This document shows positions 40,340 to 62,177 of a stretch of DNA of 64,000 bases, in pieces; positions within the stretch are counted from its first letter, which is position 1, and the number at the start of each line of letters is the position of its first letter. The stretch is taken from assembly GCF_000305775.1 (NCBI RefSeq), contig NC_018866.1, positions 1,116,001-1,180,000 of the forward strand, in the 5' to 3' direction. The stretch comes from Dehalobacter sp. DCA (GTDB lineage: Bacteria > Bacillota > Desulfitobacteriia > Desulfitobacteriales > Syntrophobotulaceae). The translations under genes were made by a program, and so were the position numbers. Below the pieces are notes generated by a model. That model saw only the letters and a list, made by a program, of their open reading frames with translations, had not been told where the DNA came from and searched no databases.

Positions 40340-41824
40340 TTATGATGATTTCTCAATAATCTCTTTGAACAAGAAAACCAAATTTGGATCAAACTGCGTC
40401 CGGGAACATGATACGATTTCCTTGATTGCTTCAGCTTCAGGCAGTGCTTTACGATACGGCCGATCATTTGTCATCGCATCAAAGGTATCAACAATACTTA
40501 AAATCCTGCATTCGATCGGTATCTCCCCTGCTTTCAATCCTAAAGGATAACCTTTTCCGTCCCATCTTTCATGGTGCTTCAGAATCAGGTGTGCAATACT
40601 CTTTAATTCTGAGGATTCGGCCGCAATTCTTTCCCCGATCCCGCAATGCGTTTTCATGACCTTCCACTCCTCCTCGTCCAGCTTGGAAGGTTTACACAGG
40701 ATCCTATCTGGAATTCCGACTTTACCGATATCGTGAAATTTGGCAAGCAACCTGATCCGGTCGAGATTACTTTGAGGCAGCCGCAGCGCTACACCCATTT
40801 GGGTTGCAAGCTCACCCATCCGTTCCGCATGGCCCTCGGTAATATAGTCCTTCGCTTCAAGCGCTCTCATCAGGGTCTTGACCAAATCGTTCCGGTTGCT
40901 GGATTCCTTCAATAATTTATTTTGATACATGTTGTTATTTGCTTCCTGAAACATCCAATCCGTATTGACAATACCTGCCTTATGGAAAGAATAGCCCGAA
41001 GACAGCGAGATCTTCAATATATCTGTTTGCTCATTGTATTTATGCAGCATTTTATTCATCTGTTCAACCTGCTGCTCAATCTCCTGGCTGGAGAGGCCCT
41101 CGACAATCACGCAAAATTCGTCTCCGCCAATACGGGCGATGTACCCGATCAATCTGAAATGGTCAGTAATCATCCGTGCTGCAGATACAATCACTTCATC
41201 CCCTTTTTGGTGACCGAACGTATCATTAATAATTTTTAACCCATCAATATCAAAGAACAAAACAGTAAGCTTTTCGAAGTTCTTCCCATGGAACTCTGCC
41301 AGTTTGTTGATTAAACAGTGCCGTTTATATAGCTTTGTCAGACTTTCTCTTTCCACCATCTCTCTTAACTGCATTTCCATTAGGGTTCTTTCAGTCATAT
41401 CCCGAACCAGTATTAAGATTTCATTAATCTCTGAGATGTGAATTCGTGATTCAAAATAGTAGTCCCGTCCCTGATACTTTAACCTAAAATCACAGGTGAC
41501 CATCTCCCGTTTCTGAACAACCTGATAAATTGCCTCCTGCACTCTCTGAACAATTTCGTTATTCCTTAAGATCTCTCGTGTTAGAGGATCGTCCTTTTTA
41601 TTGGAGACGGTAAATGGCGAAATATGGCCATCTGAATCGCTGACCAGCATAATGTCCTGAATCGCGGCCATCAAAGCTTTGTTCCGAATATTAATATGCT
41701 CAAGATCCAATAACTTTTCCTGCAGCTCGGGATAGTAATTTTTGCGGATCCAATTTTCCCCGAGACCAATGACGGCCTGCCTTGTTATTTTTTTCTCATT
41801 GAAAGCATTGTAATATTCTTTCAT
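40340..41824 (-). CDS. PAS-GGDEF-HD-GYP signalling protein, motifs intact
   Basis: About 494 residues. A PAS-like sensor region at about 30-150 (AIQDIMLVSDSDGHIS), GGDEF at about 165-320 with RIGGDEFCVIVE, and HD-GYP at about 325-494 with FHDIGKVGIPDRIL and HHERWDGKGYPLGL. Both domains look active, so it may both make and hydrolyse c-di-GMP; no RxxD inhibitory site is seen before GGDEF (RLIG instead). I chose ATG at 41824; the frame extends to 41884, but the extra residues lie over the alcohol-dehydrogenase remnant. Confidence 0.9.
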   Translation of the reverse strand: MKEYYNAFNEKKITRQAVIGLGENWIRKNYYPELQEKLLDLEHINIRNKALMAAIQDIMLVSDSDGHISPFTVSNKKDDPLTREILRNNEIVQRVQEAIYQVVQKREMVTCDFRLKYQGRDYYFESRIHISEINEILILVRDMTERTLMEMQLREMVERESLTKLYKRHCLINKLAEFHGKNFEKLTVLFFDIDGLKIINDTFGHQKGDEVIVSAARMITDHFRLIGYIARIGGDEFCVIVEGLSSQEIEQQVEQMNKMLHKYNEQTDILKISLSSGYSFHKAGIVNTDWMFQEANNNMYQNKLLKESSNRNDLVKTLMRALEAKDYITEGHAERMGELATQMGVALRLPQSNLDRIRLLAKFHDIGKVGIPDRILCKPSKLDEEEWKVMKTHCGIGERIAAESSELKSIAHLILKHHERWDGKGYPLGLKAGEIPIECRILSIVDTFDAMTNDRPYRKALPEAEAIKEIVSCSRTQFDPNLVFLFKEIIEKSS

Positions 41825-42490
41825 AAATTGCTTTAACCTCTTGCTTCGTGAGTTTTTTGGGGTTTGTAACCATACAGGGATCAATCATTGCATTTTCAAC
41901 CAGTTTGTTCATCTGGTTTTCGTCAATTTGTTCGATTTCTACCGTCGCATTAATCATTAAGTTCTCACGCAGGCATCTGACCCGTTTAAGAATTTTTTCT
42001 TTGACATTTAGATCAGAACTAAGATCAGCTAAAATATTCAACTGCTCCGCAATCCTTCGGAAACGGTTAGGTACAGCATCAAAATTAATGTCGATAACAT
42101 GCTCGAGCAGGATACTGTTGCACTTACCATGCGGCAAATTGAAAAATCTTGACTTCATCGACACCTTCATAATCCAGAATATTTCCGCCGTTGGCTACCA
42201 GTATGCTGATGCACTTCGCGCAATCCATGACACTGCCGCCGCCGATAGCAATAATCAGATCACAATCCCGGTCCAGAAAGGCTTTGCTCCCCAACATCGC
42301 TTCATAGTCTTTGGGGTTTTCAGTAACGTCATCAAAAACAACATAGGGGACTTTAATGGTTTCAAGGGTTTCCGTATACCAATTCTGATTACGAATCCTA
42401 TTGTCCATAACAATCATCGGTTTTTTTGTTCCAAAATGAGAGATATACCGGCCAACTAATCGTCTTGCATCAAGGCCGGTAATGCATATT
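41796..42490 (-). pseudogene. Iron-containing alcohol dehydrogenase remnant with internal deletion
   Basis: Two pieces of one Fe-ADH: an N-terminal part (42417-42124: NRIRNQNWYTETL, IIAIGGGSVMDCAKCI, NILDYEGVDEVK) and a C-terminal part (42170-41796: FFNLPHGKCNSILLEHVI). The middle of the family, about 170-180 residues between DYEGVDEVK and FNLPHGK including the metal-binding His region, is missing, and the join is also out of frame. Upstream, GLDARRLVGRYISHFGTKKP continues the N-terminus in the same frame with no start. The loss of this much internal sequence cannot be a sequencing slip, so real gene decay is certain. Confidence 0.85.
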
Positions 42491-43486: not shown

Positions 43487-43688
43487 TATTTACCCTCCAA
43501 GCAGCAATATTGCATTTGTATCCTCCAACAGTATCGGAGTTGGTCTTTCTTACCTGCAGCGATCTCCTGGCTGAAAGCCCCACCCTATTTTACCACAAAA
43601 TAAGATTTACTGAAATTAATGGGGCATGATTCAAACGAACCATACCCCCACCACGAAAGATCTAATTATTTATCTGCGGCCGGAAGTT

Positions 43689-43904
43689 TCAAAAACCCTT
43701 TACACAATTGCCTTCTGTTACCTGAAGCTCAATAACAAATATCTTACAGCAGCCTGCCTGGGCTGCTTTTTCCGCCAGCTTATCCAGTGCATCCAGCCCT
43801 ATTTCGGTTACGACCGTTGCTTTTTCCAGATCCACACATTGACAGCCGGTTTCTGTCCTTTTGAGATAGCCCTGGTCACATTTTAACGCGTAGAGTTTCA
43901 TCAT
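43689..43904 (-). CDS. Small cysteine-containing protein of unknown function
   Basis: 71 residues, MMKLYALKCDQGYLKRTETG, with five Cys including a CC pair (AGCCKIF). I do not recognise a family. The ATG overlaps the stop of the TrpD-like gene (TAATG), so it is translationally coupled to it and belongs to the riboswitch-controlled operon. Cysteines might bind metal or a cofactor, but this is a guess. Confidence 0.6.
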   Translation of the reverse strand: MMKLYALKCDQGYLKRTETGCQCVDLEKATVVTEIGLDALDKLAEKAAQAGCCKIFVIELQVTEGNCVKGF

Positions 43905-45028
43905 TAGATCTGCCCCAGAAGCTGATTGAGTTTCCCTGATCCGGCAGTCGGATCAGTATTTTGGGCCCCGACCCATTCCTTGAGCTTCCGGATTGCCTGG
44001 CCGTTTTGAATGATTTCTCCGGCCAGTCGGACACCCTCTGCAATCGTTGGGGCTTTGTCCATTAAATAGAGGATTAAGGCTGCATTCAGACATACAATAT
44101 CCGTACACGCCTCCGTTCCTCTACCGGACAGGATGGACAGCAGACGCAGCGCTTCCTGCCTGCGATTCCCGGAAGGGCTTAACTCCTTTTTATCAGGTCT
44201 TCTGATTCCGAATTCTTCCGGGGTAAGTGTGTATTGAACAATTTCGCCGCTCTCTTTTAACTCAGCCACATACGTTTCCCCCAAGGTAGAAGCCTCATCC
44301 ATCCCTTTGGGGCCATTTTGATCCGACCCAAAGACAACCAGCGCACGTTTGAATCCTATCTCCTTCATAACCTTGGTAACCGGCACTACCAATTCCCGGT
44401 CATACACTCCTCGGACAGCATATTGAGGGGCGGCGGGATTAGCCAGGGAAGCAGCTATGTTTAAAGTGGTCCCGAATGCAATCTGCGACAAAATCCGTCC
44501 CAGTGCTTTGGGATGAACCTGCGGACTCATGCCATTAAAAATTCCGATGCCGGTCTTTTCGATACTGCCCTTGACAATATCCGGCGTACATTCCATATCG
44601 ATGCCTACTTCCTCCAAAACGTCAATTGTTCCGCAGGACGAGGTAATCGCACGGGATCCGTGTTTGGCCATCATGATCCCAGCGGCGGCAGCAATGATCG
44701 CTGCAGCAGTACTGATATTAAATGTTTTAACGGTATCCATACCCGTACCGCTGTTTTCAACAAGGCATCCGCGGACATCAGGCACCACTTTCACCGTATC
44801 AAGTTCATAAATAGCTTCCCAACTTCCGGCGATCTCTTCAGCGGTTTCTCCTTTCGCTGTCAGCGCGGACAAAAATGCACCCTGCTGCAGATCCGGCTGC
44901 TGATTCGTCAGTACCTGAACAAACATTGCTTTGGCCTTATCTCTGGATAAATTCTGTTTGCCAATCAATTGGGTAATTCCTGCTCCAAATTCTTTTAAAT
45001 CCATGGTCATCACGCTCATTTTTCTCAT
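43904..45028 (-). CDS. Anthranilate phosphoribosyltransferase-like protein (TrpD family)
   Basis: 374-residue member of the TrpD/glycosyltransferase family 3 fold. The PRPP loop of true TrpD, GTGGDG, is GTGMDT here (NSGTGMDTVKTFNISTA); AKHGSR and GVYDRELV are kept, and the LFNVLGPL loop is TLNIAASLAN. This departs from the TrpD consensus, and no other trp gene is near, so tryptophan synthesis is unlikely. It lies behind a cobalamin riboswitch with a zinc dehydrogenase. A role in making or altering a cobamide base nucleotide is possible but unproven. The start may be nine bases inside, at 45019. Confidence 0.75.
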   Translation of the reverse strand: MRKMSVMTMDLKEFGAGITQLIGKQNLSRDKAKAMFVQVLTNQQPDLQQGAFLSALTAKGETAEEIAGSWEAIYELDTVKVVPDVRGCLVENSGTGMDTVKTFNISTAAAIIAAAAGIMMAKHGSRAITSSCGTIDVLEEVGIDMECTPDIVKGSIEKTGIGIFNGMSPQVHPKALGRILSQIAFGTTLNIAASLANPAAPQYAVRGVYDRELVVPVTKVMKEIGFKRALVVFGSDQNGPKGMDEASTLGETYVAELKESGEIVQYTLTPEEFGIRRPDKKELSPSGNRRQEALRLLSILSGRGTEACTDIVCLNAALILYLMDKAPTIAEGVRLAGEIIQNGQAIRKLKEWVGAQNTDPTAGSGKLNQLLGQI

Positions 45029-45113
45029 TTCTCCTTTATTCTTTATTCGTTTAGAATCTTAACGCTATTCATTTGCTTGCAGTTTACGTTTTTATATTTT
45101 TAGAATTTTTTTC

Positions 45114-46157
45114 TCATAATGTTAAGTCGATAATTGTATTAGTATCTTCCCTCTTTGCTACCTTTTCGATCCCCTGGACAAGGTCGGAAAGAGGCAATGC
45201 ACATGTTGTCATATCGTTTACTTTGATCATGCCGGCAGCCAGCAAATCCAGTGCTTCCCGGTTGTGCAGCGACGAGCAGCCGTAGGCGCCATACACGAAA
45301 AGTTCTTTGTAATGGATCAGATTCAAATCAATAGCCGGAACACTTTCGCTCAAGACCATTCCGCTGAAGAAACAAAAGCGTCCTCTCTTCCCCAGTACGT
45401 TCAGGCTATCAGCCATCGTCTGAGGATCAGGGCAGCAGGGGATAGCTAAATCGGCACCCTTTCCTTCCGTCAACGTCAGGATTCTGCTGACGGCATTTTC
45501 ACCGGTAGGGTTAATCCATTCATCAAAATCATTTTTGGCTGCCTCGATTCTTTCTTCTCTCTTTTCGACAAGGATGATCCTGCCCGCGCCTCTTTTTCTC
45601 GCCAATTTGGCATTTAAGATCCCCAGCGGCCCTGCCCCGAAGATCACAACCTGATCTCCGAGCCCGATCCCAGCACTTTCCTGCATATTCACACAGCAGG
45701 CCAGAGGCTCCGTCAAGGCAGCTTCGTAGAAGGTCAGGGTCTCCGGTATCTTATTCAAGACACCGTTCTTTACCCCATTTTCTGGCACCAATACATATTC
45801 TGCGAATCCCCCGTCATAATGGAAACCCATGATTTTAATATCATCACAAAGATGATGCATTCCCATCTGACAAAACCGGCATGTCCCGCAGGGCAGTCCG
45901 GGCGCAACTTGAACGCGATCTCCGGGCTTGACACAAGTCACTTCCCTTCCAGTTTCGGCCACTACTCCGGTGATTTCATGACCAAGGACCCGCGGCAGGT
46001 GCAAATCACGTTGCCCAATCTGATACGCTTTTAGATCAGTCCGACAGATCCCACAGGCCATCACTTTTACCAGCACATCCCCCTTCCTGCATTCTGGCTG
46101 GGCCACATTCGTTATTCTGATCTTTTGGATTTCCTCCAGGCGAGCAGCCTTCATCAT
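45114..46157 (-). CDS. Zinc-dependent medium-chain dehydrogenase
   Basis: About 347 residues of the MDR alcohol/sorbitol dehydrogenase type. The catalytic zinc residues are in CGICRTDLKAY and GHEITGVV, the structural zinc site in CGTCRFCQMGMHHLC, and the nucleotide-binding loop is IFGAGPLGILNAKLA. Substrate is unknown. GGAGG lies 5-8 nt before the paired ATGATG near 46157. It is the first gene after a cobalamin riboswitch (46266-46438) with its own terminator, so it should be expressed when cobalamin is low. Confidence 0.87.
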   Translation of the reverse strand: MMKAARLEEIQKIRITNVAQPECRKGDVLVKVMACGICRTDLKAYQIGQRDLHLPRVLGHEITGVVAETGREVTCVKPGDRVQVAPGLPCGTCRFCQMGMHHLCDDIKIMGFHYDGGFAEYVLVPENGVKNGVLNKIPETLTFYEAALTEPLACCVNMQESAGIGLGDQVVIFGAGPLGILNAKLARKRGAGRIILVEKREERIEAAKNDFDEWINPTGENAVSRILTLTEGKGADLAIPCCPDPQTMADSLNVLGKRGRFCFFSGMVLSESVPAIDLNLIHYKELFVYGAYGCSSLHNREALDLLAAGMIKVNDMTTCALPLSDLVQGIEKVAKREDTNTIIDLTL

Positions 46158-46192
46158 CCCGACCTCCGTTATGCGAATTTGGCACACGACAT

Positions 46193-46222
46193 AAAAAAAC
46201 CCACACCCTATCATAGGCGTGG
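46193..46222 (-). terminator. Riboswitch expression-platform terminator
   Basis: On the minus strand CCACGCCTAT pairs with ATAGGGTGTGG, followed by a T7 run (TTTTTTT), about 35 bp before the dehydrogenase start. This is the intrinsic terminator expected to form when cobalamin binds the aptamer. A short GGCCAAAAGATTTGGCC hairpin also lies between aptamer and terminator. Confidence 0.8.
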
Positions 46223-46265
46223 ATTTACCGTCTCCTCACCGGCCAAATCTTTTGGCCACATTAAT

Positions 46266-46438
46266 TAAAGGCAGGTCTCCTGACTCCGTCTCATTGCCTG
46301 CCTATCCCTTCCCCGTTTTATCTGGGTGGTTTGATAGGAGCTCAACGTTACAGTGGTGGGTCCGTCCGGGAATCTCACCCGGTTCCCTATTCTCCCCAAG
46401 TTTGTACCATGTCTTCACAAACACTTGGGACACCTAGA
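46266..46438 (-). promoter_or_regulatory. Cobalamin riboswitch upstream of the dehydrogenase/TrpD-like operon
   Basis: The B12 box reads AGTCAGGAGACCTGCC on the minus strand (46285 to 46270). Upstream, GAATAGGGAACCGGGTGAG, TTCCCGGACGGACCCACCAC and TGTAA are the conserved core of the aptamer in the usual order. The first conserved stem begins CTAGGTGTCCC at 46438. A terminator follows at 46193-46222, so it probably works by transcription termination. This is a classical AdoCbl-class layout. Confidence 0.92.
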
Positions 46439-46454
46439 ATTAATTCTTTTTAAA

Positions 46455-46484
46455 ATTATAAACAGTACTGGAGGATATTGTCAA
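46455..46484 (-). promoter_or_regulatory. Promoter of the riboswitch-controlled dehydrogenase operon
   Basis: On the minus strand TTGACA (46484-46479), an 18-bp spacer and TATAAT (46460-46455), both perfect sigma-A hexamers, lie about 20 bp before the first conserved bases of the aptamer. The spacer is one base longer than optimal. Confidence 0.75.
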
Positions 46485-46718
46485 GCAATAATCTTCGTAA
46501 TGCTATTCTTACGACAGGCATATCCCCGTTATCCTGAGAGCTAAAAACAATTGTTCTGCTCATATCGATCGTGGAATCAGCGTCTGTACATGCGTAGACA
46601 ATTCAAACAGATTTCAGTATATTTGCAAGGCATTTTATCAATAATAGAATAGACTTATGAAAGACTTCTTTCAGTACAAACATCAAGACATTGAGTCAGT
46701 CAGGTGGTGGAATAAAAT

Positions 46719-47174: not shown

Positions 47175-48452
47175 CTATTCCAGAAGCAATAATCCAAAGT
47201 ATTTGACAAATTCATTTTTGTCTTTTAAGGTCCGCATTGTAAAGCCTTGTTTGGCAACCGTGGCAAAAACATCCATACCGGCGCTCTCCATAGAAGGGCG
47301 CGTAGCCGTACATTTTTTTGGCGGTGCAGGCTGTTTGCACTCGCTGCAAAGATGGCATGGTCCCGCCCAAAAAGCAAAAGCTTTATAAAATCCCTGCTTA
47401 AAAGCGGCCTTCTCAGCATCCAGCATGACACGTTGAAACATGCGGGTCGGCGGCTGGCCTTCAATCAGAAAAGCTTTAGTATAGCCGTCTAATTTTACGC
47501 TTGTTTCCTCATAGGAAGGGCTGTTTGGGGGACAGCATTTTTCCCCATAACTGGAGCATCCGTAGCGGCAATGATCTTTTGCCCAATGGGCCGTAACAAC
47601 ATCCTGAGGATGAATCAGCGTGACAGACTGGACCGGCAGCCTTTTTAACTTTGCACGAAGCTGTGCTTCAGCTGATATCGCAAGTTCCTGTAATTTGTTC
47701 TTATTCTTGGATGCAAAAATCACCGAAATATCCCTGGTAAGTTGTAATAAAGGTGTTTGCATCATCTGCTTTCTCTCAAAGAATGCAGTAACATCCTTTG
47801 CCGCTAGGGCGTTAACCGAAAACATGGAACTATCTTTTTTGAGGTAAGCTTGATACGAGCGAATTGCCGTTGGTAGAGAAGATTCTTCGGCATAAGTACC
47901 AATGACGGCAATCACTGCATCATCGGTGATGGTTTGCGCGCATTTTTCATAATTTCCGCCTGTTATGACCAGATCATAGGGCAAATGGACATCAAAAGAA
48001 ATCTCGGTACATTGTTTCATTAGAAAATTCCGGATTGATGAAGATATTTCATCCGATAAAAACCTTTCAATGCAGACATTTCCTTTGAAATATTCCAATA
48101 TCGGCATAAGTTTTTCGGCGATAAACATTCCGCTGAATTCGCCGTTTATTAATGCATCCAGGCTATAAAAAGAACTTGTCTTTGATAGGTATTTCGTACT
48201 TACGGGGGTATTAGACAAATATCCTTCTTTCCTGATGATTAAACCCATCTTCTCTAGGACGCCGAGAAAAAGGTGTGTCCCTTGGTCATCAAGATGAAGA
48301 CCGTTCGCCAGATCACTAAAAGATCTCCCTTCTTCAATTGCGGTAAAAAGTTCACAATCCATCGCCTTGTGAAGGATTTCCGCTGCATCCTGTTCCGCTT
48401 TGATTTGCAATAAAAAGTCATAGTTGTCGTTCTGGTAATCAAATTTATTCAT
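47175..48452 (-). CDS. Winged-helix/O-methyltransferase-like domain fused to DUF2284
   Basis: 425 residues. The first ~100 (MNKFDYQNDNYDFLLQ...ALINGEF) match the winged-helix dimerisation domain of plant-type O-methyltransferases. A typical SAM-binding GxGxG region is not visible in the next ~120 residues. The last ~180 residues are DUF2284, a cysteine-rich putative metal-binding domain: CRYGCSSYGEKCCPPNSPS and GPCHLCSECK. No catalytic role is established. It is the last gene of the riboswitch-controlled operon, 7 nt after the permease gene. Confidence 0.72.
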   Translation of the reverse strand: MNKFDYQNDNYDFLLQIKAEQDAAEILHKAMDCELFTAIEEGRSFSDLANGLHLDDQGTHLFLGVLEKMGLIIRKEGYLSNTPVSTKYLSKTSSFYSLDALINGEFSGMFIAEKLMPILEYFKGNVCIERFLSDEISSSIRNFLMKQCTEISFDVHLPYDLVITGGNYEKCAQTITDDAVIAVIGTYAEESSLPTAIRSYQAYLKKDSSMFSVNALAAKDVTAFFERKQMMQTPLLQLTRDISVIFASKNKNKLQELAISAEAQLRAKLKRLPVQSVTLIHPQDVVTAHWAKDHCRYGCSSYGEKCCPPNSPSYEETSVKLDGYTKAFLIEGQPPTRMFQRVMLDAEKAAFKQGFYKAFAFWAGPCHLCSECKQPAPPKKCTATRPSMESAGMDVFATVAKQGFTMRTLKDKNEFVKYFGLLLLE

Positions 48453-49953: not shown

Positions 49954-50313
49954 TTATTTCTCAGAATCAAAAAAACATTCCGTTTCTTTCAAATACTTCA
50001 TCACCGCTTGCATCCCTTGCTGATGATTTTTCAGCACCATTGCAATTTCTTCCTTAGTAAGATTGTCTTGGTGAAATCCGGCGGACACCAAACAAACGCA
50101 TTGCAAAACCCTGGACACTTCCTGCGCCAGCGGTTCCGCCAGGGCATCATCACGATGACCTTCTGCCGTATACGTTGTCACCGTCCCGCAGTTCCCGACC
50201 GCAACGCTGCCGATATGCTGTCTCCCTCCGGTAACGCTAATCAGAATGTCGTGTCCAATGACGGATATCTCGTAGGACAGGGCGAGCTTATCTTGGCCGA
50301 TCGCTATTTTCAT
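49954..50313 (-). CDS. LpdD-like small protein partner of UbiD/UbiX
   Basis: 119 residues with VTGGRQHIGSVAVGNCG and the LALSYEISVIGHDILISV opening. This resembles the LpdD/prenylated-flavin chaperone-like family that accompanies UbiD decarboxylases, such as gallate decarboxylase (LpdC, LpdB, LpdD). I am fairly sure of the family but not of its role. It overlaps ubiX by 4 nt. Presence beside ubiX and an ubiD-like gene strengthens the call. Confidence 0.65.
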   Translation of the reverse strand: MKIAIGQDKLALSYEISVIGHDILISVTGGRQHIGSVAVGNCGTVTTYTAEGHRDDALAEPLAQEVSRVLQCVCLVSAGFHQDNLTKEEIAMVLKNHQQGMQAVMKYLKETECFFDSEK

Positions 50314-50870
50314 TGGTCACTTCGCCATCTTTCGTAGAGATTGTGCGGAATCTTCAACAAATCCAATACCTTGCCGACACTTTGATTTACAATATCGTCA
50401 ATGGTTTTGGGCCGGTGGTAAAAAGCCGGTATAGGCGGGATGAGTATGCCGCCAGCTTCTGTTACGGTCGTCATATTTTTCAGATGAATGGACGAAAGCG
50501 GTGTCTCTCTGACCATCAATAAGAGAGGACGCCGCTCTTTCAAGGCCACGTCGGAAGCGCGGACAATCAGATTATCGCTGTAGCCATTCGCAATCCCGGA
50601 CAGAGTCTTCATACTGCAAGGTGCGACAATGGTCGCCTCGATCCCGTAAGAACCGCTGGCAACGGCGGCAGCTAAGTCGTTATGGTCGTATACTTTGTCT
50701 GCTAAAGATTGGACGTAACCCACAGCATAATCCGTTTCCAGCGAGAGCGTTTCTTTTGCCCACCCGCTCATGATCAGCGAAACATGATGCTCTGTCTCTT
50801 TGAGGACTTCCAACAGACGCACGCCATAGATCACCCCGGTGGCACCTGTCAGAGCAACAAGAATCTTCAT
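50310..50870 (-). CDS. ubiX: UbiX-like flavin prenyltransferase
   Basis: Makes prenylated FMN, the cofactor of UbiD decarboxylases, from FMN and dimethylallyl phosphate. 186 residues; ALTGATGVIYGVRLLEVL is the FMN-binding start, and APCSMKTLSGIANGYSDNLI, MVRETPLSSIHLKNM and ILIPPIPAFYHRPKTIDDIV are conserved UbiX/Pad1 segments. Its local role is to supply cofactor to the UbiD-like enzyme at 54795-56162. It is read 60 bp after hyuB across a hexanucleotide-repeat gap. Confidence 0.93.
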   Translation of the reverse strand: MKILVALTGATGVIYGVRLLEVLKETEHHVSLIMSGWAKETLSLETDYAVGYVQSLADKVYDHNDLAAAVASGSYGIEATIVAPCSMKTLSGIANGYSDNLIVRASDVALKERRPLLLMVRETPLSSIHLKNMTTVTEAGGILIPPIPAFYHRPKTIDDIVNQSVGKVLDLLKIPHNLYERWRSDQ

Positions 50871-50881
50871 TACTTATCAAT

Positions 50882-50920
50882 CCTTACCTTATCCTTATCC
50901 TTGTCTTTGTCTTTGTCGCC
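50882..50920. repeat. Hexanucleotide repeat in the hyuB-ubiX gap
   Basis: On the minus strand the gap reads as near-perfect hexamers, GACAAA/AGACAA units followed by GGATAA units, ending near the ubiX start. It overlaps the expected ribosome-binding region of ubiX (AAGGAT repeated). Such simple repeats can slip, but there is no evidence that this one varies. Confidence 0.65.
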
Positions 50921-50930
50921 TTATTTTTTC

Positions 50931-52682
50931 TTACACTCTTCTATTCCCATTTTTACTGTTTCTGAATTGATTCGTTTTATCATAATCAATTCCCGTTTCA
51001 GTTATGACAACACCATAAATTTCTTTAGCCGTTTTTACGGAGATGATCTCATCCAAAACATCCGCATATACCTTTTCTACCGGGCGGTCCAGCGGTTTGC
51101 CCCATCCGCCGCCGCCGCAGGAACTCAGAATGACCTGGTCACCTTTGGCAACACATCTTGGCGCTTCTTTACTTGCCATAACGACCGGTTCCCCCTGATG
51201 AAGAAAAACCCCTTTATTTAAACTCCCTTGGTTTCCGCCGTTTAAACCGTAAGGCGCAAATTTCATCCCATCCCCAAAATTCACGATATGGCTGCCTTCA
51301 TCGTATAGCTCAAACGCATATTTCATCCCTGCTCCGCCGCGATATTCTCCGGCGCCGGCCGTATCCGTTTCCATTTCATGATAAAGGGTGATGTGCGGAT
51401 ATTGGATTTCGTTGGATTCAATATCCGGCGTTTTGACGCCGCCGAAATTAGACATGGGCGACATATAGGATTTTCCGTCTCTTCCTTGCATTGCACCGCC
51501 GCTTCCGGTCGAGCAGAAAGAAAATCCTACATAATAACGGTTATTTCTGGGGTCTCTGCCATAATAAGAAGGGCCTGCATAGCGCGTATATCCCGCAGGA
51601 ACCCTTCCGGGGACTGCTTGATTCAGTGCCTGAAAAATGGCGCCGATCATTTCACTGGCCGGAGTTAAAGTGCAAAGCGTCATGGGTGCCGGTTCATAAG
51701 GATTTACTAAAGACCCTTTGGGCAAATGGACATCGATGCAGCGGAAGGCACCATCATTTCTGGGAATATCGTCGCCTAAAAACCAAAGGACCGCAATACC
51801 CGAAGCAGTCGTCGCTGTGACCACTGAAGTATTGATAAAGCCTTTAACCTGCGGGTCTGTCCCTGCGAAGTCAACTAAAAGACGTTCGCCTTCTACTTTC
51901 ACTGCAATCTCAATTTTAACAGGTTCTTCTTGAAAACCGTCATCATCAATGTATTCGGTCGCCCGGTAAATACCGTCAGGAATCTCCCGTATCCGCTTCT
52001 TCGTGAGCATCTCGGTTTGTTCCAGGGTTTCGGCAATGGCTTTGTTTACGACAGCGGGCGTATAGGCTTCCACCATCTCCAGAATGCGCTTCGCAGCAAC
52101 TTTGTTGGCACCGATCTGGGCTAAGAGGTCGCTTTTGAGCATGTCGGGATTACGGGTATTGATTAAAATCAGATCTAAAATTTCACCAATGAATTCGTTG
52201 TTGCGCATTAGTTTTGTCGGGGGAATCCGAATTCCTTCCTGAAATATTTCGGTTGCCTTGGGATTATAGCTGCCCGCGGTGGAACCTCCGATATCCCCGT
52301 GATGGGCGCGGCTGACACAGAAAAACATTAAATTGTCCTCAAAAAAGACAGGGGTAATGATTCCGATATCAGGCAGGTGATTTCCACCGTCATAAGGATC
52401 ATTGATTATAAAAACATCACCGTTTGTGATGCTATTCGGATATTTCCGCAAAACAGATTTGACGCTGAAGGAGCCTGCTGTCGCCAAAATCGGAATACCG
52501 CTTAACTGAGAGACCAATTGACCGTCTCGATCACAAATACAACAAGCAAAGTCACAGGCTTCGGCGAAGATCGGGGAATGGGCAGAATGCTCCAAGGCGA
52601 GTCCCATTTCTTTGGTGATACTATCGAGACGATTGGCGATAACGGTGCGGTTAATCATATCTTCCGTCGTTGTCCTTGTCAT
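50931..52682 (-). CDS. hyuB: Hydantoinase/oxoprolinase family B subunit
   Basis: 583-residue HyuB-type protein: RTTTEDMINRTVIANRLDSI at the start, FIINDPYDGGNHLPDIG, and HHGDIGGSTAGSYNPKATEIF. It pairs with HyuA to open cyclic amides using ATP, or to carboxylate ketones such as acetone or acetophenone. Its start overlaps hyuA by 4 nt. The substrate is not predictable from sequence. Known relatives include N-methylhydantoinase, 5-oxoprolinase and acetophenone carboxylase subunits. Confidence 0.92.
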   Translation of the reverse strand: MTRTTTEDMINRTVIANRLDSITKEMGLALEHSAHSPIFAEACDFACCICDRDGQLVSQLSGIPILATAGSFSVKSVLRKYPNSITNGDVFIINDPYDGGNHLPDIGIITPVFFEDNLMFFCVSRAHHGDIGGSTAGSYNPKATEIFQEGIRIPPTKLMRNNEFIGEILDLILINTRNPDMLKSDLLAQIGANKVAAKRILEMVEAYTPAVVNKAIAETLEQTEMLTKKRIREIPDGIYRATEYIDDDGFQEEPVKIEIAVKVEGERLLVDFAGTDPQVKGFINTSVVTATTASGIAVLWFLGDDIPRNDGAFRCIDVHLPKGSLVNPYEPAPMTLCTLTPASEMIGAIFQALNQAVPGRVPAGYTRYAGPSYYGRDPRNNRYYVGFSFCSTGSGGAMQGRDGKSYMSPMSNFGGVKTPDIESNEIQYPHITLYHEMETDTAGAGEYRGGAGMKYAFELYDEGSHIVNFGDGMKFAPYGLNGGNQGSLNKGVFLHQGEPVVMASKEAPRCVAKGDQVILSSCGGGGWGKPLDRPVEKVYADVLDEIISVKTAKEIYGVVITETGIDYDKTNQFRNSKNGNRRV

Positions 52683-54754
52683 GCTTCTGCACCTTCTTTT
52701 GTTATAGATAAAACACCGTTCTTAACCGATTTGCCTGCAAAGCCAGCGGGGATCAAAACCGTGGTGTAGTCAAAATTGATCAGAGCCGGGCCGTTGATAC
52801 CTTTTGTACCATTGCCGGTTAAATCACCGGCGTGGTAGACAGGGACGGAAATTTCGCCCGTTTGTCCGAAGGGATTCCCTGCCACTGTCCTATTCGCTAA
52901 GAGAATGTCATTCTCAGGGAACGGAAAGCGTGTGTTTTCCTTTTCCCGTTCTAGACAAGCCAGATGGATATTAATGATTTCCCATTCTTTGTCTGTTTCT
53001 GCATATTCATAGATGCTTTCGTGGGTACGATTGAAGGCGATTTCTAAAGCATCCCGGCTCTCTGAGGTAAACGCTCCCTGCCAGGGTATTGCTATTTCAT
53101 GGTGCTGTCCGATGTAACGCATTTCCAGGGTAAGTCGGAAATTCTGCTCATTTTCCGGTACTCCCAAACGCCCGAGCTCCGCTTTTCCTTCTTTTTTCAT
53201 GTCGGTAATAACCACGTTAATTTTCGATGGGTCCCATTGTCCCTTTTCCATAAAGAAACTTCGCGTGAAATCACAGCGACGGGTTGCCCCTAACATACCC
53301 CATGCACAAAAGACAGGACCGATGACCGGAAATAAGACTTCTTTCATATGCAGCGCATCCATCATGTTGGCTGCAAACAACGGAAAAGCTCCTCCCGCGC
53401 CGATCAAGGAGAATTTTCTGGGGTCATTGCCTTTTTGGATTGTGACAAGACGCACCGCATCAGCCATCATCTCAGTAGCAATCCGGTAAATGATATTGGC
53501 CCCTTCTGCTACAGAGATATCCAGCGGGGCAGCAACTTTGTCGTGAATCACTTTTTCAGCCAGCTTCTTATTAAGGCCCATTTGACCACCGAGGAAACTA
53601 TCTTCATCGATCAGTCCCAAAACAACCAGAGCATCCGTAACCGTAGGCTCGGTCCCGCCTAAACCGTAACAGGCAGGGCCTGGAACTGATCCGGCGGAGT
53701 CCGGTCCCACCAATAATCTTCCACTTTCATCCAGACGGGCAATACTACCCCCGCCGGCTCCAATGGAAGTGATGTCAATGGTCGGAATCGATAACGGATA
53801 GCCAGCGATCTTCGATTGGGGAATCAGCTGATTTTTACTGTCTGACACATGCACATCAAAACTGGTCCCCCCCATATCTGCCAACACCGTATAGGGCTTT
53901 TCTGTCATTTTCCCGATGGCTTCATTGCCGCAGGCACCACCGGCAGGTCCCGAAAAAAGGGTTTTGACAGCGAAACTGGACATCGCATCCGTATCGCTTA
54001 AGCCACCGCTGTTCATCATCATATGAATCGGTTTGCCCCAACCATATTGGGCCAGTTCCTTTTTGACGGTGTGGAGATAATCTTGAAGAACCGGCGTCAG
54101 ATAAGCATTGAGAACCGTCGTGGAAGTTCTTTCATACTCTCTGATTTTTGGTGCTACGTCCGAAGAGAGCGCCACGAAAACGCCGGGTAGTTCTTCTCGA
54201 ATAATTTCTGCCGTTCTTTTTTCATGTTCCGGATTTAGAAAAGAAAAAAGGTAGCAAACCGCAATGCTCTGTACGCCGTATGCCTTGCATTTCAGACAAG
54301 CATTTCGGACAGCTTGTTCATCCAGCACTTTAAGGATGTCCCCTTTGTAGTCCATGCGCTGCGCAATACCCAAGCGCAGTCTGCGCGGAACCAGTACATC
54401 CGGCGTTTCCGCTCGCAGATCCCATTGATTTTCAAGCTGAGAACGGCGTATCTCCAGCGCATCACGGAAACCCTCCGTGGTAAAAAGTGCAGTGACCGCG
54501 CCTTTTTTTTCTAAAAGGGCGTTTAACGCTAAGGTGGTGCCGTGAATAATTTGTTCCGTTTCTGAGAGGAGTGTCTCTAAATCCGTATGCCAGGCATCTG
54601 CTAATTTTTTTAAGCCAGCGATCATCCCCTGGGCAAGATGGTTATGATCCGTGAGATTTTTGACAAAGACCGTTTTGTGTTCACTGTTCTGAAACGTCCC
54701 TACCGCGGTGTAGTCGGTGAAAGTACCTCCTGTATCAATGGCAATTTTAATCAT
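52679..54754 (-). CDS. hyuA: Hydantoinase/oxoprolinase family A subunit
   Basis: 691-residue ATP-binding subunit of the HyuAB complex. It begins IKIAIDTGGTFTDYTAV (actin-like phosphate loop), and later GTTLALNALLEKKGAVTALF, SGPAGGACGNEAIG and VLADMGGTSFDVHV are conserved family sites. It phosphorylates the substrate (lactam or ketone), which the B subunit then processes. It is 40 bp below ubiD on the same transcript. Confidence 0.93.
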   Translation of the reverse strand: MIKIAIDTGGTFTDYTAVGTFQNSEHKTVFVKNLTDHNHLAQGMIAGLKKLADAWHTDLETLLSETEQIIHGTTLALNALLEKKGAVTALFTTEGFRDALEIRRSQLENQWDLRAETPDVLVPRRLRLGIAQRMDYKGDILKVLDEQAVRNACLKCKAYGVQSIAVCYLFSFLNPEHEKRTAEIIREELPGVFVALSSDVAPKIREYERTSTTVLNAYLTPVLQDYLHTVKKELAQYGWGKPIHMMMNSGGLSDTDAMSSFAVKTLFSGPAGGACGNEAIGKMTEKPYTVLADMGGTSFDVHVSDSKNQLIPQSKIAGYPLSIPTIDITSIGAGGGSIARLDESGRLLVGPDSAGSVPGPACYGLGGTEPTVTDALVVLGLIDEDSFLGGQMGLNKKLAEKVIHDKVAAPLDISVAEGANIIYRIATEMMADAVRLVTIQKGNDPRKFSLIGAGGAFPLFAANMMDALHMKEVLFPVIGPVFCAWGMLGATRRCDFTRSFFMEKGQWDPSKINVVITDMKKEGKAELGRLGVPENEQNFRLTLEMRYIGQHHEIAIPWQGAFTSESRDALEIAFNRTHESIYEYAETDKEWEIINIHLACLEREKENTRFPFPENDILLANRTVAGNPFGQTGEISVPVYHAGDLTGNGTKGINGPALINFDYTTVLIPAGFAGKSVKNGVLSITKEGAEA

Positions 54755-54794
54755 ACGCTCATCCCTTAATCGGTATATTTAGAACACACAACCC

Positions 54795-56162
54795 TTATTT
54801 GGCATATTTAAGAAGCCGTTGCACTGCCGCTCTTACTTCATCGTCCAATTGGATTTTAGGGGCGAAACCGCTTAAGGGCTTTGTGGCATCAATCCCCATT
54901 TTGGACGTACGGCTTAATTCATCCGTTGAGGGGTCAAGGGTCACACCCATTCCCAGGTGCTGCGGTAAAATGGAAACCCCTTTATCCGCTTGTAACCGAG
55001 TGGCAAGTGCCCATAGGACTTCCTCTTCGTTAAAGACGTCGACATCTTCATCCACCACAATGACCATCTTGATATTGTGGTCGACAGCAAAAGCGGCGTA
55101 AATGGCTTGCATAGGCTGCCCTTCGGCAATTTTTTTCATAGAAATATAGCAATGAAACAATCCGCAGGCCGAAAAGGGTGCATGAACTGCTTTGATATTC
55201 GGCAAAGTCTGATGTAAAGCGTTTAAAACATCGCCTTCTCGCTGAATGGCCACAACCGTGATATGTTCACTGCTCATCCCAGGTGTCAAGTCATGATAAA
55301 AAGCGTTTTGCCGGTAGCGGATTGCTTTGACTTTGAAGACATTCTCCGTACTGCGATAGCAGGCGTAATTCGTAAATTCAGCGAAAGGACCTTCCTTTTC
55401 CCGCACATCAGCCAGTATTTCACCTTCCAGGACAATTTCCGCATAGGCCGGAACCTGTAAATTGACCGTTGCGCAAGGTGCAACCTCTAATGGTTCACCG
55501 AAAAGTCCGGCAATCGCACCATATTTCCCCTGGTCATATGGAACGAGGGCCATCGATCCCAAGGCAATATTGGGATGAACACCAATCACGATGGCGGCTT
55601 CCAGGCTCTGTCCTTTTTCTTCGCTTCTTCGAAAATATTCCCAGAGTCTTTGACGGGAATGGAGTGATATCCCTAAGGTATTCTTGTTTTTTAACTGCAT
55701 GCGGTGGAAACCTAAGGTTTCCACACCGCTTACAGGGTCTTTGGCAACACACAGTCCAGAGGTTACATAGGGCCCGGCGTCAATCGGAAAGTGGGTCGGA
55801 ATCGGAAGCTTATAGAGATCGATGTCATCGCCGGTGATACAATGCTCGGCAAAAGGAGGGTTCTTAATAACTTTGACCTCTTCGATCCGTTTTTTGATAC
55901 GCTCGGCATAGGTTTCAGAAACTTTAGACGCTTCGACACCCAGTCCTTTGCCAAACCGTTCTCTGGTGCTTAAGATACTGGTCACCACAGGAAACGCACT
56001 GTTCTCTACTTTATCAAAAACCATGACGGGATAACGATGCTCTTTTTCCAGTTCCATAATGAGGGTGCTGATTTCATATGCTCTTTTAACTTCTTCCGTG
56101 ACATGCTTTACTTCACCATCTCGTTCGAGCTGCTTCAAAAAATCTCTTAAGTCTTGGCTCAT
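54795..56162 (-). CDS. UbiD family decarboxylase
   Basis: 455-residue prenylated-FMN decarboxylase. It has GFHRMQLKNKNTLGI (with the catalytic Arg), GEPLEVAPCATVNLQVPA, and the glutamate motif REKEGPFAEFTNYACYRS. These are the residues that form the Glu-Arg-Glu active site in the family. Members act on hydroxybenzoates, cinnamates and other unsaturated or aromatic acids, in either direction. With UbiX and an LpdD-like protein encoded in the same operon it should be functional; the substrate is unknown. Confidence 0.92.
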   Translation of the reverse strand: MSQDLRDFLKQLERDGEVKHVTEEVKRAYEISTLIMELEKEHRYPVMVFDKVENSAFPVVTSILSTRERFGKGLGVEASKVSETYAERIKKRIEEVKVIKNPPFAEHCITGDDIDLYKLPIPTHFPIDAGPYVTSGLCVAKDPVSGVETLGFHRMQLKNKNTLGISLHSRQRLWEYFRRSEEKGQSLEAAIVIGVHPNIALGSMALVPYDQGKYGAIAGLFGEPLEVAPCATVNLQVPAYAEIVLEGEILADVREKEGPFAEFTNYACYRSTENVFKVKAIRYRQNAFYHDLTPGMSSEHITVVAIQREGDVLNALHQTLPNIKAVHAPFSACGLFHCYISMKKIAEGQPMQAIYAAFAVDHNIKMVIVVDEDVDVFNEEEVLWALATRLQADKGVSILPQHLGMGVTLDPSTDELSRTSKMGIDATKPLSGFAPKIQLDDEVRAAVQRLLKYAK

Positions 56163-56207: not shown

Positions 56208-56744
56208 TTATTGGGCTAAACCTGATTTTTTAATGCTGTCATACACCAATTTTGTGATGATTGTGGAAAGAGGCCAGCAGACTGCAATAGTAATCAATGC
56301 TTCAATTACGGCAACCTTGATGGGTAACTGGTAAATATTGATTAATCCAATACAAACAACAGCATTCCCTAAAACATTGCAGAGAAATTGGGCGAGAATG
56401 TGGTGCCACCATTTTTCCATGGAGCACTTGGCTGCCACCAATGATACGGCAAGTGACCCGATGGCATTCGCGAAGACAAAAGCAATCCACAGCGGGCTGT
56501 ACCAGATGGAAATGATAGCTTCAACTTCCCCGGCAATGATTCCGGCAGGCTGTTTATAGAGCAGGACAATGAGTGCCGTAAAGGATGCCCAGACCGTACC
56601 GTTAATTAAGTACATGCCTGCTTTGCCTGTGGGAAGCAGGTTGTCAATAAAACCTGTAGCCTGACAGGCTATGACAAAGACAATACCTAAGAGAATGGAC
56701 CCCACGAGTGCTTTTGTGTCGGTTCTGAAAAATTTGTTATTCAT
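56208..56744 (-). CDS. ECF transporter substrate-binding (S) component, YkoE-like
   Basis: 178-residue protein with five to six membrane helices. Its size, and segments such as AGMYLINGTVWASFTALIV and IIAGEVEAIISIWYSPLW, suggest a YkoE-type S component, which captures the substrate and docks on the ATPase/T unit encoded just upstream. AGGAGG precedes the ATG. The cobalamin riboswitch at the operon head suggests a corrinoid, benzimidazole-type base or other cobalamin-linked substrate, but this is inference; substrate specificity cannot be read from the sequence. Confidence 0.7.
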   Translation of the reverse strand: MNNKFFRTDTKALVGSILLGIVFVIACQATGFIDNLLPTGKAGMYLINGTVWASFTALIVLLYKQPAGIIAGEVEAIISIWYSPLWIAFVFANAIGSLAVSLVAAKCSMEKWWHHILAQFLCNVLGNAVVCIGLINIYQLPIKVAVIEALITIAVCWPLSTIITKLVYDSIKKSGLAQ

Positions 56745-56777
56745 AATGTCCTCCTAAAATAAAATATTTTTTATATT

Positions 56778-56858
56778 TTAGTACCAGGTCAACCCTAAAT
56801 CTACTTGTTCCCTCTCGTTAAATTGTTTACATGCATTTTGGAGTTATCAAGGTACTAA
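56778..56858. repeat. 81-bp MITE-like element overlapping the ecfT stop
   Basis: Bounded by TTAGTACC (56778) and GGTACTAA (56858), the left end continuing as AGGTCAACCC. The outer 25 bp match the right end of the 32358-32573 element with one difference. On the minus strand it runs from the last codons of ecfT (TTA GTA CCT TGA) to about 35 bp before the S-component start, so the element supplies the C-terminal Leu-Val-Pro and the stop of EcfT. Confidence 0.65.
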
Positions 56859-57578
56859 GTTAACTGTAATGAAAAATAGGATAAAAACCACCATACTGAT
56901 CATTTCCCAGCTTTTTAAATGCAATTGTTTGCCAAAAGTTCGTTGCTTGCTTCTGCCATAGCCTTTTAATTCCATCGAAAGAGCAATATCTGAAGTATGC
57001 CGGACTGTACGATATAGCAACGGCATAAACGTTAACGGAAGATTTTTTATTCTATTTTTAATCCCTTCAGAGGGATAACCCCGAACAGATTGACTCTCTG
57101 AAATTGCCAGATATTCCTTTTGCATCAGAGGAAAAAACCGTTTTGTCATAACAACTAACATGGCATAGCGATAAGGAACACGCCATGATATGAGCATTAA
57201 AGCGGCATCTGTGGCAGAAGTCCAGGTCATAAACTGAACGGCAGCAAAGGTTATAGCTACCGTGCGGGTAATACCTAAAGCAGCGGCCGGAATAGCGCCA
57301 GTATAAACAGATACGATTCCCCACTGCCAAACAAGTTCTCCATCCCGGCAGAACAAAAGCTGTATCACAAGAATTTGCGAGGCTACTAAAAGCATTACAG
57401 GCAAAAGTATTTTATATTTTTTTAAATGGTTAGAAAAAATACAATCCGTAATCATTACCAATGCAATCATCCCAATTTCCTGGATCAGATTCTGCGAAAG
57501 CAAAGCTGTAAGGATCAGTGTTAAACACCATACCAACTTCGTGCGCGGATCAATTTCTTCAATGAAGGCCATAAGCAA
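56847..57578 (-). CDS. ECF transporter transmembrane (T) component
   Basis: 243-residue CbiQ/EcfT-type protein with about six helices. It begins MAFIEEIDPRTKLVWCLTLI, a typical EcfT start, and has the coupling helix regions SMELKGYGRSKQRTF and SQSVRGYPSEGIKNRIKN (Ala/Ser-Arg-Gly pattern) that touch the ATPase. It overlaps the ATPase gene by 20 nt; a start two codons later (57572) is also possible. The last codons and the stop belong to a MITE-like element, so the native C-terminus may have been replaced. Confidence 0.85.
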   Translation of the reverse strand: MLMAFIEEIDPRTKLVWCLTLILTALLSQNLIQEIGMIALVMITDCIFSNHLKKYKILLPVMLLVASQILVIQLLFCRDGELVWQWGIVSVYTGAIPAAALGITRTVAITFAAVQFMTWTSATDAALMLISWRVPYRYAMLVVMTKRFFPLMQKEYLAISESQSVRGYPSEGIKNRIKNLPLTFMPLLYRTVRHTSDIALSMELKGYGRSKQRTFGKQLHLKSWEMISMVVFILFFITVNLVP

Positions 57579-59052
57579 TGCCCTCCTTCTGAAAATCTAA
57601 TCCGATGTCCTTCAATGTTTTTTCAAAAGAACCAATTTTTGGGGTCGCAATATCCAATGCCAGATGGTGCTTATGCATCGCCATGATTCGATTGGTATAT
57701 TGTTTGGCCAAACTCAGGTCATGGGTAACGAGAATAACCGTTTTACCTTGTTGCTGAAATGCAGAAAGCAGCTCCATGATCAGAGTACTTTGTTCTTCAT
57801 CTAAGCCTGAGGTTGGTTCATCAGCCATGATAATCTCGGGACCTCCTACTAAAACAGAGGCAATTGCCAGTTTCTGACGCTGGCAGCGGCTGAGCCTATG
57901 AGGATGAATATCGGCGTATGCCAACAGCCCGACTTCAGCTAAAATTCCATTCACCTTCTCTTCAATTTCCTCTTCCGGCAGTTTTCTTGTTCTTAAAATA
58001 AAAGCTACCTCGTCTTTTACTGTGTTCGTAAAGATTTGAAGATCAGGGTTTTGAAACAGAAAACCTATTTGACTGCGTATGGTTGCTAAATTTCTTTTGG
58101 TCAGGGGTTTGCCAAATATCTGAATCGCACCAGCATCCGGGACAAGCAAACCTTCCATTAACTTTAAGAGCGTCGTTTTCCCTGAACCATTGAGTCCAAT
58201 CAACCCAATAAAATCCCCTTGATTAATGGCTAAATTGATTTTTTCACATCCCTTAAAATCTCCTTTATAGGTAAAGGATAGATCCTTCACTTCAATTATT
58301 TTTTCATTTGCTGCCGTAATGTTTCTTGCTGGCCTTGTTTTATTTAAACGTTTCTGATAGTCATCAGGGCTGCATTCTTCTTTGATTGTTCCTTCAGCCA
58401 TGATAAGAATACGATTGGTATAAGGGAGAATATCACAGGCCCGGTCCATCACCATAATCACGGTAGCTCCCTTTTCTTTATTTAAAAAACCGATATGAGA
58501 ATAGAGGTCTTGTTTTCCCTTTAAGTCTAATTCTGCGGTGGGCTGGTCTAAAACAAGAATGGGAGTTTCCATAGCGAGAACACTTGCCAATACCACTCTT
58601 TGGGCTTGTCCGCCGGACAGTCCATCCGTATTTCTTTGTTCAAAACCCTCCAGTCCAACGAATTGCAACGTTTTTTTGACTCTGTTCTTCATTTCCTCCC
58701 AAGGAAGTTCCATATTGGCAATACCAAAAGCCACTTCTTCCTCTACCGTGATACTGACAATTTGATTTTGCGGCTCCTGCATCATATAGCCGATGTGATC
58801 GCACATTTTGGCCAGGGGAATATCATGGATATCTTGCCCCATGACCCTAATGGTGCCGTTTAACTGCCCATTGAAAAATTGAGGCGCTGCTCCGGTGATG
58901 CTATGGAGCAACATCGATTTTCTCGATGCCGCTTCCCCTGTAATGGCGATAAAATCTCCTTTATTGATGGTTAAGTCGATATCTTTTAACACTTTCTTTG
59001 TCTCAGGCGGAAAAGTAAGAGATTCTATTTTAAGCTGTACCGCAGGTTCCAT
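57559..59052 (-). CDS. Fused two-domain ECF transporter ATPase (EcfA-EcfA')
   Basis: 497 residues with two ABC domains in one chain, as in YkoD and CbrU. Domain 1 (1-240) has a degenerate Walker A (GEAASRKS) and Walker B ending Asp-Gln (ILVLDQPTAELD), but an intact signature LSGGQAQR. Domain 2 (252-485) has an intact Walker A (GLNGSGKTT) and Walker B (IIMADEPTSGLD), but its signature is LSRCQRQ. So one composite ATP site looks complete and the other looks degenerate. It is the first gene after the cobalamin riboswitch at 59187-59337. Confidence 0.9.
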   Translation of the reverse strand: MEPAVQLKIESLTFPPETKKVLKDIDLTINKGDFIAITGEAASRKSMLLHSITGAAPQFFNGQLNGTIRVMGQDIHDIPLAKMCDHIGYMMQEPQNQIVSITVEEEVAFGIANMELPWEEMKNRVKKTLQFVGLEGFEQRNTDGLSGGQAQRVVLASVLAMETPILVLDQPTAELDLKGKQDLYSHIGFLNKEKGATVIMVMDRACDILPYTNRILIMAEGTIKEECSPDDYQKRLNKTRPARNITAANEKIIEVKDLSFTYKGDFKGCEKINLAINQGDFIGLIGLNGSGKTTLLKLMEGLLVPDAGAIQIFGKPLTKRNLATIRSQIGFLFQNPDLQIFTNTVKDEVAFILRTRKLPEEEIEEKVNGILAEVGLLAYADIHPHRLSRCQRQKLAIASVLVGGPEIIMADEPTSGLDEEQSTLIMELLSAFQQQGKTVILVTHDLSLAKQYTNRIMAMHKHHLALDIATPKIGSFEKTLKDIGLDFQKEGIAYGLH

Positions 59053-59075
59053 CGGATGAAAGCCTCCATATAAAA

Positions 59076-59100
59076 ATGTAAACTATATACATGTAAACTA
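59076..59100. repeat. Short direct repeat before the ATPase gene
   Basis: ATGTAAACTA occurs at 59076-59085 and again at 59091-59100, 15 bp apart, between the riboswitch terminator and the ATPase start. It could be a protein-binding site, but the repeat is short and AT-rich. Confidence 0.35.
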
Positions 59101-59113
59101 CATGCATGCAAAA

Positions 59114-59162
59114 TAAAAAAAGTTCCAGTTTTGAGAGATACTAACTCTCAAACTGAAACTTT
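59114..59162 (-). terminator. Riboswitch terminator of the ECF/UbiD operon
   Basis: On the minus strand AAAGTTTCAGTTTGAGAG pairs with CTCTCAAAACTGGAACTTT around a short loop, followed by a T-rich run (TTTTTTTATTTT). The stem is about 18 bp. It sits between aptamer and the ATPase start, so it should be the cobalamin-dependent terminator. Confidence 0.85.
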
Positions 59163-59186
59163 ACCGTCGCTTCATTACGATATCTT

Positions 59187-59337
59187 TATTGGCAGGTCTT
59201 CTGACTCATAGTTTTAACCGACTTCTGTGCCTTCCCAATTTCTCAGTGGCATTGTACAGTCATCACAACTATTTACAGCGGTGGGTCCGTCCAGGATTTG
59301 CACCTGATTCCCTATTCTTCTCCATAAGAGACACCAA
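59187..59337 (-). promoter_or_regulatory. Cobalamin riboswitch upstream of the ECF/UbiD/Hyu operon
   Basis: The B12 box is AGTCAGAAGACCTGCC on the minus strand (59206 to 59191). Upstream, GAATAGGGAATCAGGTGCAA, ATCCTGGACGGACCCACCGC and TGTAA are present in the canonical order. It begins TTGGTGTCTC at 59337. Fit to the AdoCbl riboswitch consensus is very good. It follows a TTGACT/TAGAAT promoter, and a strong terminator lies downstream. Confidence 0.93.
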
Positions 59338-59362
59338 AAAGAATATATGATTATTACGTATT

Positions 59363-62142: not shown

Positions 62143-62177
62143 ATTCAGTCTTACCTTAAAACTGAGAACAAAAATAA

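Follow-up and report, generated by a model that had tools for sequence, protein, structure and literature searches.

What is a homologue of the anthranilate phosphoribosyltransferase TrpD doing behind a cobalamin riboswitch? The question is raised by a short operon of the dechlorinating bacterium Dehalobacter sp. DCA, analyzed here in a window of 64,000 nucleotides (contig NC_018866.1, positions 1,116,001 to 1,180,000). The operon encodes a zinc-dependent medium-chain dehydrogenase/reductase (MDR), the TrpD-like protein, and a protein of 71 amino acid residues (aa); riboswitch and genes together are called the cassette. By gene fusion, shared operons, and co-occurrence, the cassette is grouped with the cobamide nucleotide-loop genes, and it very probably belongs to cobamide lower-ligand or nucleotide-loop metabolism. 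This role is assigned on the basis of the control elements, the conserved pairing of the MDR and the TrpD-like protein, and fusion or linkage to CobT. TrpD and CobT both transfer phosphoribose, CobT being the enzyme that activates the lower base. A preliminary description, made from the sequence alone, had proposed an aromatic base of cobamide metabolism as the possible substrate of the TrpD-like enzyme. At the level of the pathway the proposal is strongly upheld, through CobT fusions and neighbors, the frequency of CobS and of the riboswitch, and replaced substrate contacts; the base and the reaction we infer.

Linkage of the cassette to cobamide genes

The operon is laid out as first described. 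A perfect promoter, a full aptamer (model positions 1–189 of 189 in the RF00174 covariance model), and an intrinsic terminator precede the MDR gene (Table 1). The start of the MDR gene behind GGAGG is preferred because the longer open reading frame (ORF) overlaps the terminator. The TrpD-like protein that follows has the loop GTGMDT at residues 94–99, and its stop codon overlaps the start of the 71-aa ORF in the sequence TAATG. No trp genes were recognized in the window, where ORFs were judged by eye and 10 proteins around the operon by profile search.

Scanning a single genome for each species yielded 80 loci, 61 of which fall in the clade of the TrpD-like protein (best segment 49–68% identical) and 19 outside it (32–38%). 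Of the 61 clade loci, all of which were counted by tblastn, 59 have an MDR gene within 3.5 kb on the same strand; none of 20 ordinary trpD loci, L095 and L099 included, has one. The two clade loci without an MDR, L071 and L078, are on contigs that end beside the gene. A survey for cobalamin riboswitches ahead of TrpD paralogues, as the preliminary description had suggested, separates the two groups as well. RF00174 is found upstream of the cassette in 35 of the 39 bacterial loci examined, as against none of seven ordinary trpD controls, four of which have a T-box. The scan was confined to bacterial loci. By batch, the counts are 10/10 (the window, L010, and L020–L027, with L027 represented by L012, the overlapping locus from G013), 10/12 (not L035 or L036), 10/11 (not L061), and 5/6 (not L075).

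In six loci (L048, L061, L065, L067, L070, and L074) the MDR is fused to CobT in a single protein, the CobT half of which matches its Pfam family at E ≤ 2e-120 in the four scanned. In L074, the fused CobT is the sole PF02277 match of the genome. An unfused CobT gene lies within 3 kb and on the same strand in seven more loci (L028, L033, L037, L040, L069, L072, and L077), so that CobT is fused to or adjoins the cassette in 13 of 61, compared with 0 of 20 ordinary trpD loci. A rough estimate, resting on an assumed genome size and copy number, gives 0.25 unfused CobT neighbors expected in 61 loci, with P(≥6) of 2e-7. The linkage is not ascribed to chance because the same arrangement recurs across phyla. 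Other cobamide genes adjoin the cassette too: L033 has the order CobD/HisC-like gene, MDR, TrpD-like, CobT, CobS, its first gene matching CobD below cut-off; a CbiET gene follows the cassette in L075, and a CobU gene in L035.

The preliminary description had offered a second possibility, a B12-independent stand-in, which would here take the place of a cobamide-dependent enzyme. Cobalamin riboswitches do also control B12-independent isozymes, but the linked genes, CobT, CobS, CobU, and CbiET, build cobamides rather than use them, and the fusion partner is CobT. The possibility finds no support and is scarcely credible.

Co-occurrence was followed in 56 genomes, a set supplemented with G036 and the window genome; the clade loci L049, L059, L063, L067, L071, L078, and L080 were left out. 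CobS is present in 53 of the 56. PF02277 is matched in 43 at E ≤ 0.001, in 40 of them above cut-off, and the archaeal CobT model TIGR00303 is matched above cut-off in 18 of the 24 genomes searched, mostly archaea. Neither model is matched in G044, G045, G080, G099, or G102. In an even sample of the phylum, the TrpD-like protein occurs in 12 of 398 genomes at E ≤ 1e-90, the weakest match being a 243-residue piece; CobS is present in all 12, as against 239 of the 386 genomes without the cassette (Fisher p 0.0036).

Some neighbors are confined to single or related loci. In two archaeal bins (L028 5864-11798 and L072 63-6966), the cassette stands between a dihydropteroate synthase gene, upstream, and genes for a sodium:solute symporter and an archaeal CobT, downstream. 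In L061 (7512-7955), a type II 3-dehydroquinate dehydratase (aroQ) gene lies 42 bp upstream of the TrpD-like gene. Both the synthase and aroQ were considered as functional partners and rejected, being found in only one or two related loci. L035 (4043-4762) and L036 (2671-3390) have an ORF with a radical-SAM-like Cys motif between the MDR gene and apparent corrinoid-transporter genes; motif and transporter genes were identified by eye, and the ORF has no NCBIfam match.

Table 1. Features of the cassette and its surroundings in the window.
Feature	Position	Strand	Basis or remark
Sigma-70 type promoter, TTGACA-18-TATAAT	46455..46484	-	consensus match 12/12
Cobalamin riboswitch aptamer, RF00174	46253..46452	-	96 bits vs gathering score 31.5, E 1.2e-22
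Intrinsic terminator, riboswitch expression platform	46197..46226	-	12 pairs + T tail
Zinc MDR dehydrogenase	45114..46157	-	listed ORF begins at 46214; 46157 is the probable start
TrpD-like phosphoribosyltransferase	43904..45028	-	profile searches, alignment, tree, model
71-aa protein, conserved as third member in many bacterial cassettes	43689..43904	-	profile, alignment, predicted fold
Second terminator, closing the operon	43621..43648	-	
Interval absent from two further Dehalobacter genomes	43634..46598	.	43633 and 46599 there 4–5 bases apart

The three cassette proteins

The TrpD-like protein has the fold of TrpD, its phosphoribosyl pyrophosphate (PRPP) and Mg residues, and its N-terminal helical domain. 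The AlphaFold model has a predicted local distance difference test (pLDDT) score of 92.6, and its best structural matches are TrpD. By profile searches, the protein is of another family than CobT (TIGR03160, PF02277; archaeal TIGR00303), and it matched no CobT model, PF02277 and TIGR00303 included. Residues were compared between 60 clade members and 18 ordinary TrpD proteins; L095 and L099 are absent from the 18, and L058, L059, and L076, having no called TrpD-like ORF, were left out of the alignments, the distance comparison, and the tree. In the tree of 78 rows, a branch of 100/100 support parts the 60 from the 18.

The PRPP and metal residues are retained in the clade. N104, S106, D244, and E245, which serve PRPP and metal, are invariant among the clade residues present, T107 is found in 59/60, and position 122 is K or R. 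The GTGGD of TrpD is GTGMD, however, with M97 in all 60 clade rows and G in all 18 ordinary proteins, and the clade has a two-residue insertion at 165-166. The acceptor site differs also. In TrpD of Mycobacterium tuberculosis (Mtu), N138 and R193 are assigned to contact with the carboxylate of anthranilate, and substitution at R193, and likewise at a neighboring Asn written N139, impairs catalysis (PMC9835598). With Mtu numbering mapped through motif positions and the alignment rather than by direct alignment to the Mtu chain, the N138 equivalent is Ala or Ser in 60/60 clade members, and the R193 equivalent is Leu in all 59 with a residue at that site. TrpD variants N138A and R193L, i.e., the residues found naturally in the clade, are listed in the PDB.

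These replacements bear on the simplest reading, that the protein is a second ordinary anthranilate phosphoribosyltransferase. Its score of 278 bits does exceed the TIGR01245 cut-off of 199. Against this, both anthranilate contacts are replaced across the clade, and the DCA genome has an ordinary trpD, whose product is 36% identical to the TrpD-like protein, in a different operon under a different regulator: a T-box-led trp operon with trpEG, trpB, trpD, trpC, and trpF (names by eye except trpD). The ordinary reading is thus extremely improbable.

Catalytic and structural zinc ligands and the NAD motif are conserved in the MDR. Among 52 rows, the zinc ligands C57, E80, and E169 and four further Cys residues are present in all, H79 in 51; the GxGxxG of the site for nicotinamide adenine dinucleotide (NAD) is present in all, the acidic residue E217 in 51. 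The zinc and NAD residues are retained in every MDR–CobT fusion. These MDR proteins have a signature of their own, K-x4-G-[QH]-R-D-L-x2-P-R, and K62, R69, and R75 lie near the active site. Distances in the MDR and the TrpD-like protein run parallel (r 0.82 over 52 rows), to which shared descent contributes. The zinc MDR fold, zinc ligands, and NAD site are shared with IolM and L-threonine 3-dehydrogenase, but the MDR scores far below the curated cut-offs of those models (204.6 vs 450 bits and 193 vs 458, respectively).

The Tdh-like sequence could suggest that the MDR serves the aminopropanol linker, by reducing aminoacetone, and shares only regulation with the TrpD-like enzyme. It is in keeping with this that the MDR of L033 follows the gene with the sub-threshold CobD match. 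Yet the DCA cobalamin operon already has a CobD-like gene, recognized by eye, and the universal TrpD-like partner would go unexplained, so that this assignment is highly improbable.

The 71-aa protein had been described as a Cys-rich peptide with five Cys residues. It has six, and the label is misleading in that Cys is not the conserved feature: the first Cys is common to 10 of 19 homologues, whereas K8, A29, and V31 are invariant. With a profile, 23 ORFs were recovered from 23 locus entries; the entries L010 and L015 represent a single gene. In L065 and L067, the gene is flanked by the TrpD-like gene on one side and the MDR–CobT gene on the other, in step with both. The predicted fold (pLDDT 95.8) is beta-rich with one helix. 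No Pfam family was assigned, two DUF7526 matches (best E 0.0055) being below cut-off, and the structure search gave no Foldseek match at E < 0.001 and a best VIA-align Z of 4.1.

A proposed lower-ligand module and its alternatives

We suggest that the cassette is a cobamide-repressed lower-ligand module. At low cobamide, the terminator would not form and the operon would be transcribed. With PRPP as donor, the TrpD-like enzyme would phosphoribosylate an aromatic acceptor that is not anthranilate, and the NAD-dependent MDR would oxidize this acceptor or its ribotide. The product, an unusual lower base or its activated form, would then be used by CobT (or CobS), the small protein acting as a putative accessory subunit. 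Judged from the sequences, a module in which transferase and dehydrogenase act in this way is, on balance, the probable one; any single acceptor for the TrpD-like enzyme is less likely than the mechanism as a whole.

Several observations weigh against the module. The TrpD-like protein is carried, at the order survey's threshold of E ≤ 1e-70, by six of 73 genomes of the order, the window genome included; within the genus, the other four genomes lack it. The cassette is absent from 67/73 genomes of the order and 4/5 of the genus, and therefore is not generally needed. CobT within 3 kb is missing at 48 of the 61 clade loci. CobT is lacking from two near-complete genomes (92% and 100%), both of a single genus, that carry the cassette and CobS. 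A new invariant Arg in the clade, R178, leaves a carboxylated acceptor possible. Finally, a tandem ThiC pair of the bzaAB kind is present in at least six cassette genomes (G013, G036, G073, G078, G093, and G112).

The two genomes without CobT invite an alternative, in which the alpha-ribotide is reached independently of CobT. Here the TrpD-like enzyme would join base and PRPP with inversion, giving a beta-ribotide, and the MDR would invert C1' through transient oxidation of the C2'-OH, giving the alpha-ribotide needed by CobS. In both genomes, CobS is retained together with the unit of riboswitch, MDR, and TrpD-like gene. A relative of the MDR, L-threonine 3-dehydrogenase, oxidizes an OH next to an amine, and K62, R69, and R75 of the MDR could hold a phosphate. 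On the other hand, CobT is present in most cassette genomes, an MDR–CobT fusion would oddly join two parallel routes, and the CobT-less genomes may salvage alpha-ribazole by CblS; the stereochemistry, too, is reasoned. This route is considered unlikely.

R178 could instead belong to a phosphoribosyl-donor system, in which the TrpD-like enzyme would re-phosphoribosylate the nicotinate released by CobT or make another beta-ribotide donor. Such a system would suit whichever lower base is used, in keeping with a cassette found both alongside bza-type pairs and in genomes that have none, and its double inversion fits the stereochemistry. It leaves no role for the dehydrogenase, however, and the cassette is retained in the two CobT-less genomes, which makes a donor system a less likely choice still than the CobT-independent route.

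Like BzaA/B/F of the ThiC family and BluB, the lower-ligand module is proposed to provide or activate the lower base; the cassette has no sequence relation to these enzymes. The ThiC family includes the anaerobic lower-ligand enzymes. ThiC-family genes are found in 46 of the 56 cassette genomes, where most may be plain ThiC, and one adjoins cobT in G097; the DCA genome has no ThiC-family (bza) gene. BluB is above cut-off in none of the 56, DCA included, with weaker matches in 53. That the cassette serves solely as a substitute for the bza route was rejected, since tandem ThiC-family pairs coexist with it in six genomes. Next to cobS in G044 (L131 1098-1409), a 103-aa ORF resembles the ends of a ThiC-family protein without its middle and is perhaps a bza remnant.

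The corrinoid pathway has been called complete in strains CF, DCA, and UNSWDHB (PMC4751268), and the native cobamide of Dehalobacter sp. CF, a sister strain of DCA, matches no known cobamide (PMC11348799). A link between the cassette and this CF cobamide is a lead. A bolder proposal, possible but doubtful, is that the cassette encodes an undescribed PRPP route for making or activating a lower base, that the native cobamide of corrinoid-making Dehalobacter arises from it, and that methanogens and sulfate reducers use the route as well. No description of a link between TrpD and cobamides was found in the open-access PMC literature; in the excerpted text of PMC8620254 and PMC12452182, trpD is mentioned without one. 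The structure of the lower ligand determines which microbes can use a cobamide, and the ligand is predictable for only 58% of predicted cobamide producers (PMC6461909). For such organisms, the conserved riboswitch-controlled pair with its CobT fusions is a named candidate for a missing step.

Distribution, other riboswitches, and neighboring genes

This small gene set recurs in many anaerobic bacteria and archaea, probably for the variable lower part of B12-type cofactors. The 80 scan loci, most of them in metagenome bins, include Firmicutes, Desulfosporosinus, Desulfobulbus, Dehalococcoidales, Actinomycetes, and Aquificota, and, among archaea, Methanomassiliicoccus, Methanothrix, and Syntrophoarchaeum. 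RF00174 lies upstream in all six carrier genomes of the order. The cassette was inserted or deleted as a discrete block: besides the two Dehalobacter genomes of Table 1, a third has the flanks 43627 and 46617 separated by 33 bases. Since the flanks nearly abut in genomes without the cassette, the riboswitch and the genes were acquired or lost together, as one piece of about 2,965 bp.

The DCA genome has six cobalamin riboswitches, two of them inside the window. The other one in the window (59353-59174) precedes genes for a double-ATPase ATP-binding cassette protein and membrane components (56208-59353), resembling an energy-coupling factor type transporter. In D. restrictus PER-K23, addition of cobalamin represses the genes under five riboswitches, among which, in the excerpted text of PMC4285132, the cassette switch does not figure. 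A cobT gene at L132 (G000:C1:636651-638031) lies directly behind a riboswitch of its own; that of PER-K23 is outside the five riboswitch operons (PMC4285132).

Around the operon, an iron alcohol dehydrogenase gene is in pieces (41796-42417), with about 431 bp fewer between 42148 and 42149 than in L139, another Dehalobacter. A 425-aa protein (47175-48452) has a C-terminal DUF2284 metal-binding domain and an N-terminal half without a family above cut-off. UbiX-type, hydantoinase-B, and hydantoinase-A type genes and a UbiD-like ORF stand in a row at 50310-56162, UbiX and hydantoinase B being assigned by profile searches and the rest by eye. At 59729-63875 are a CRP-like regulator, a NosR/RdhC-like membrane protein, and a reductive-dehalogenase-like ORF, likewise recognized by eye.

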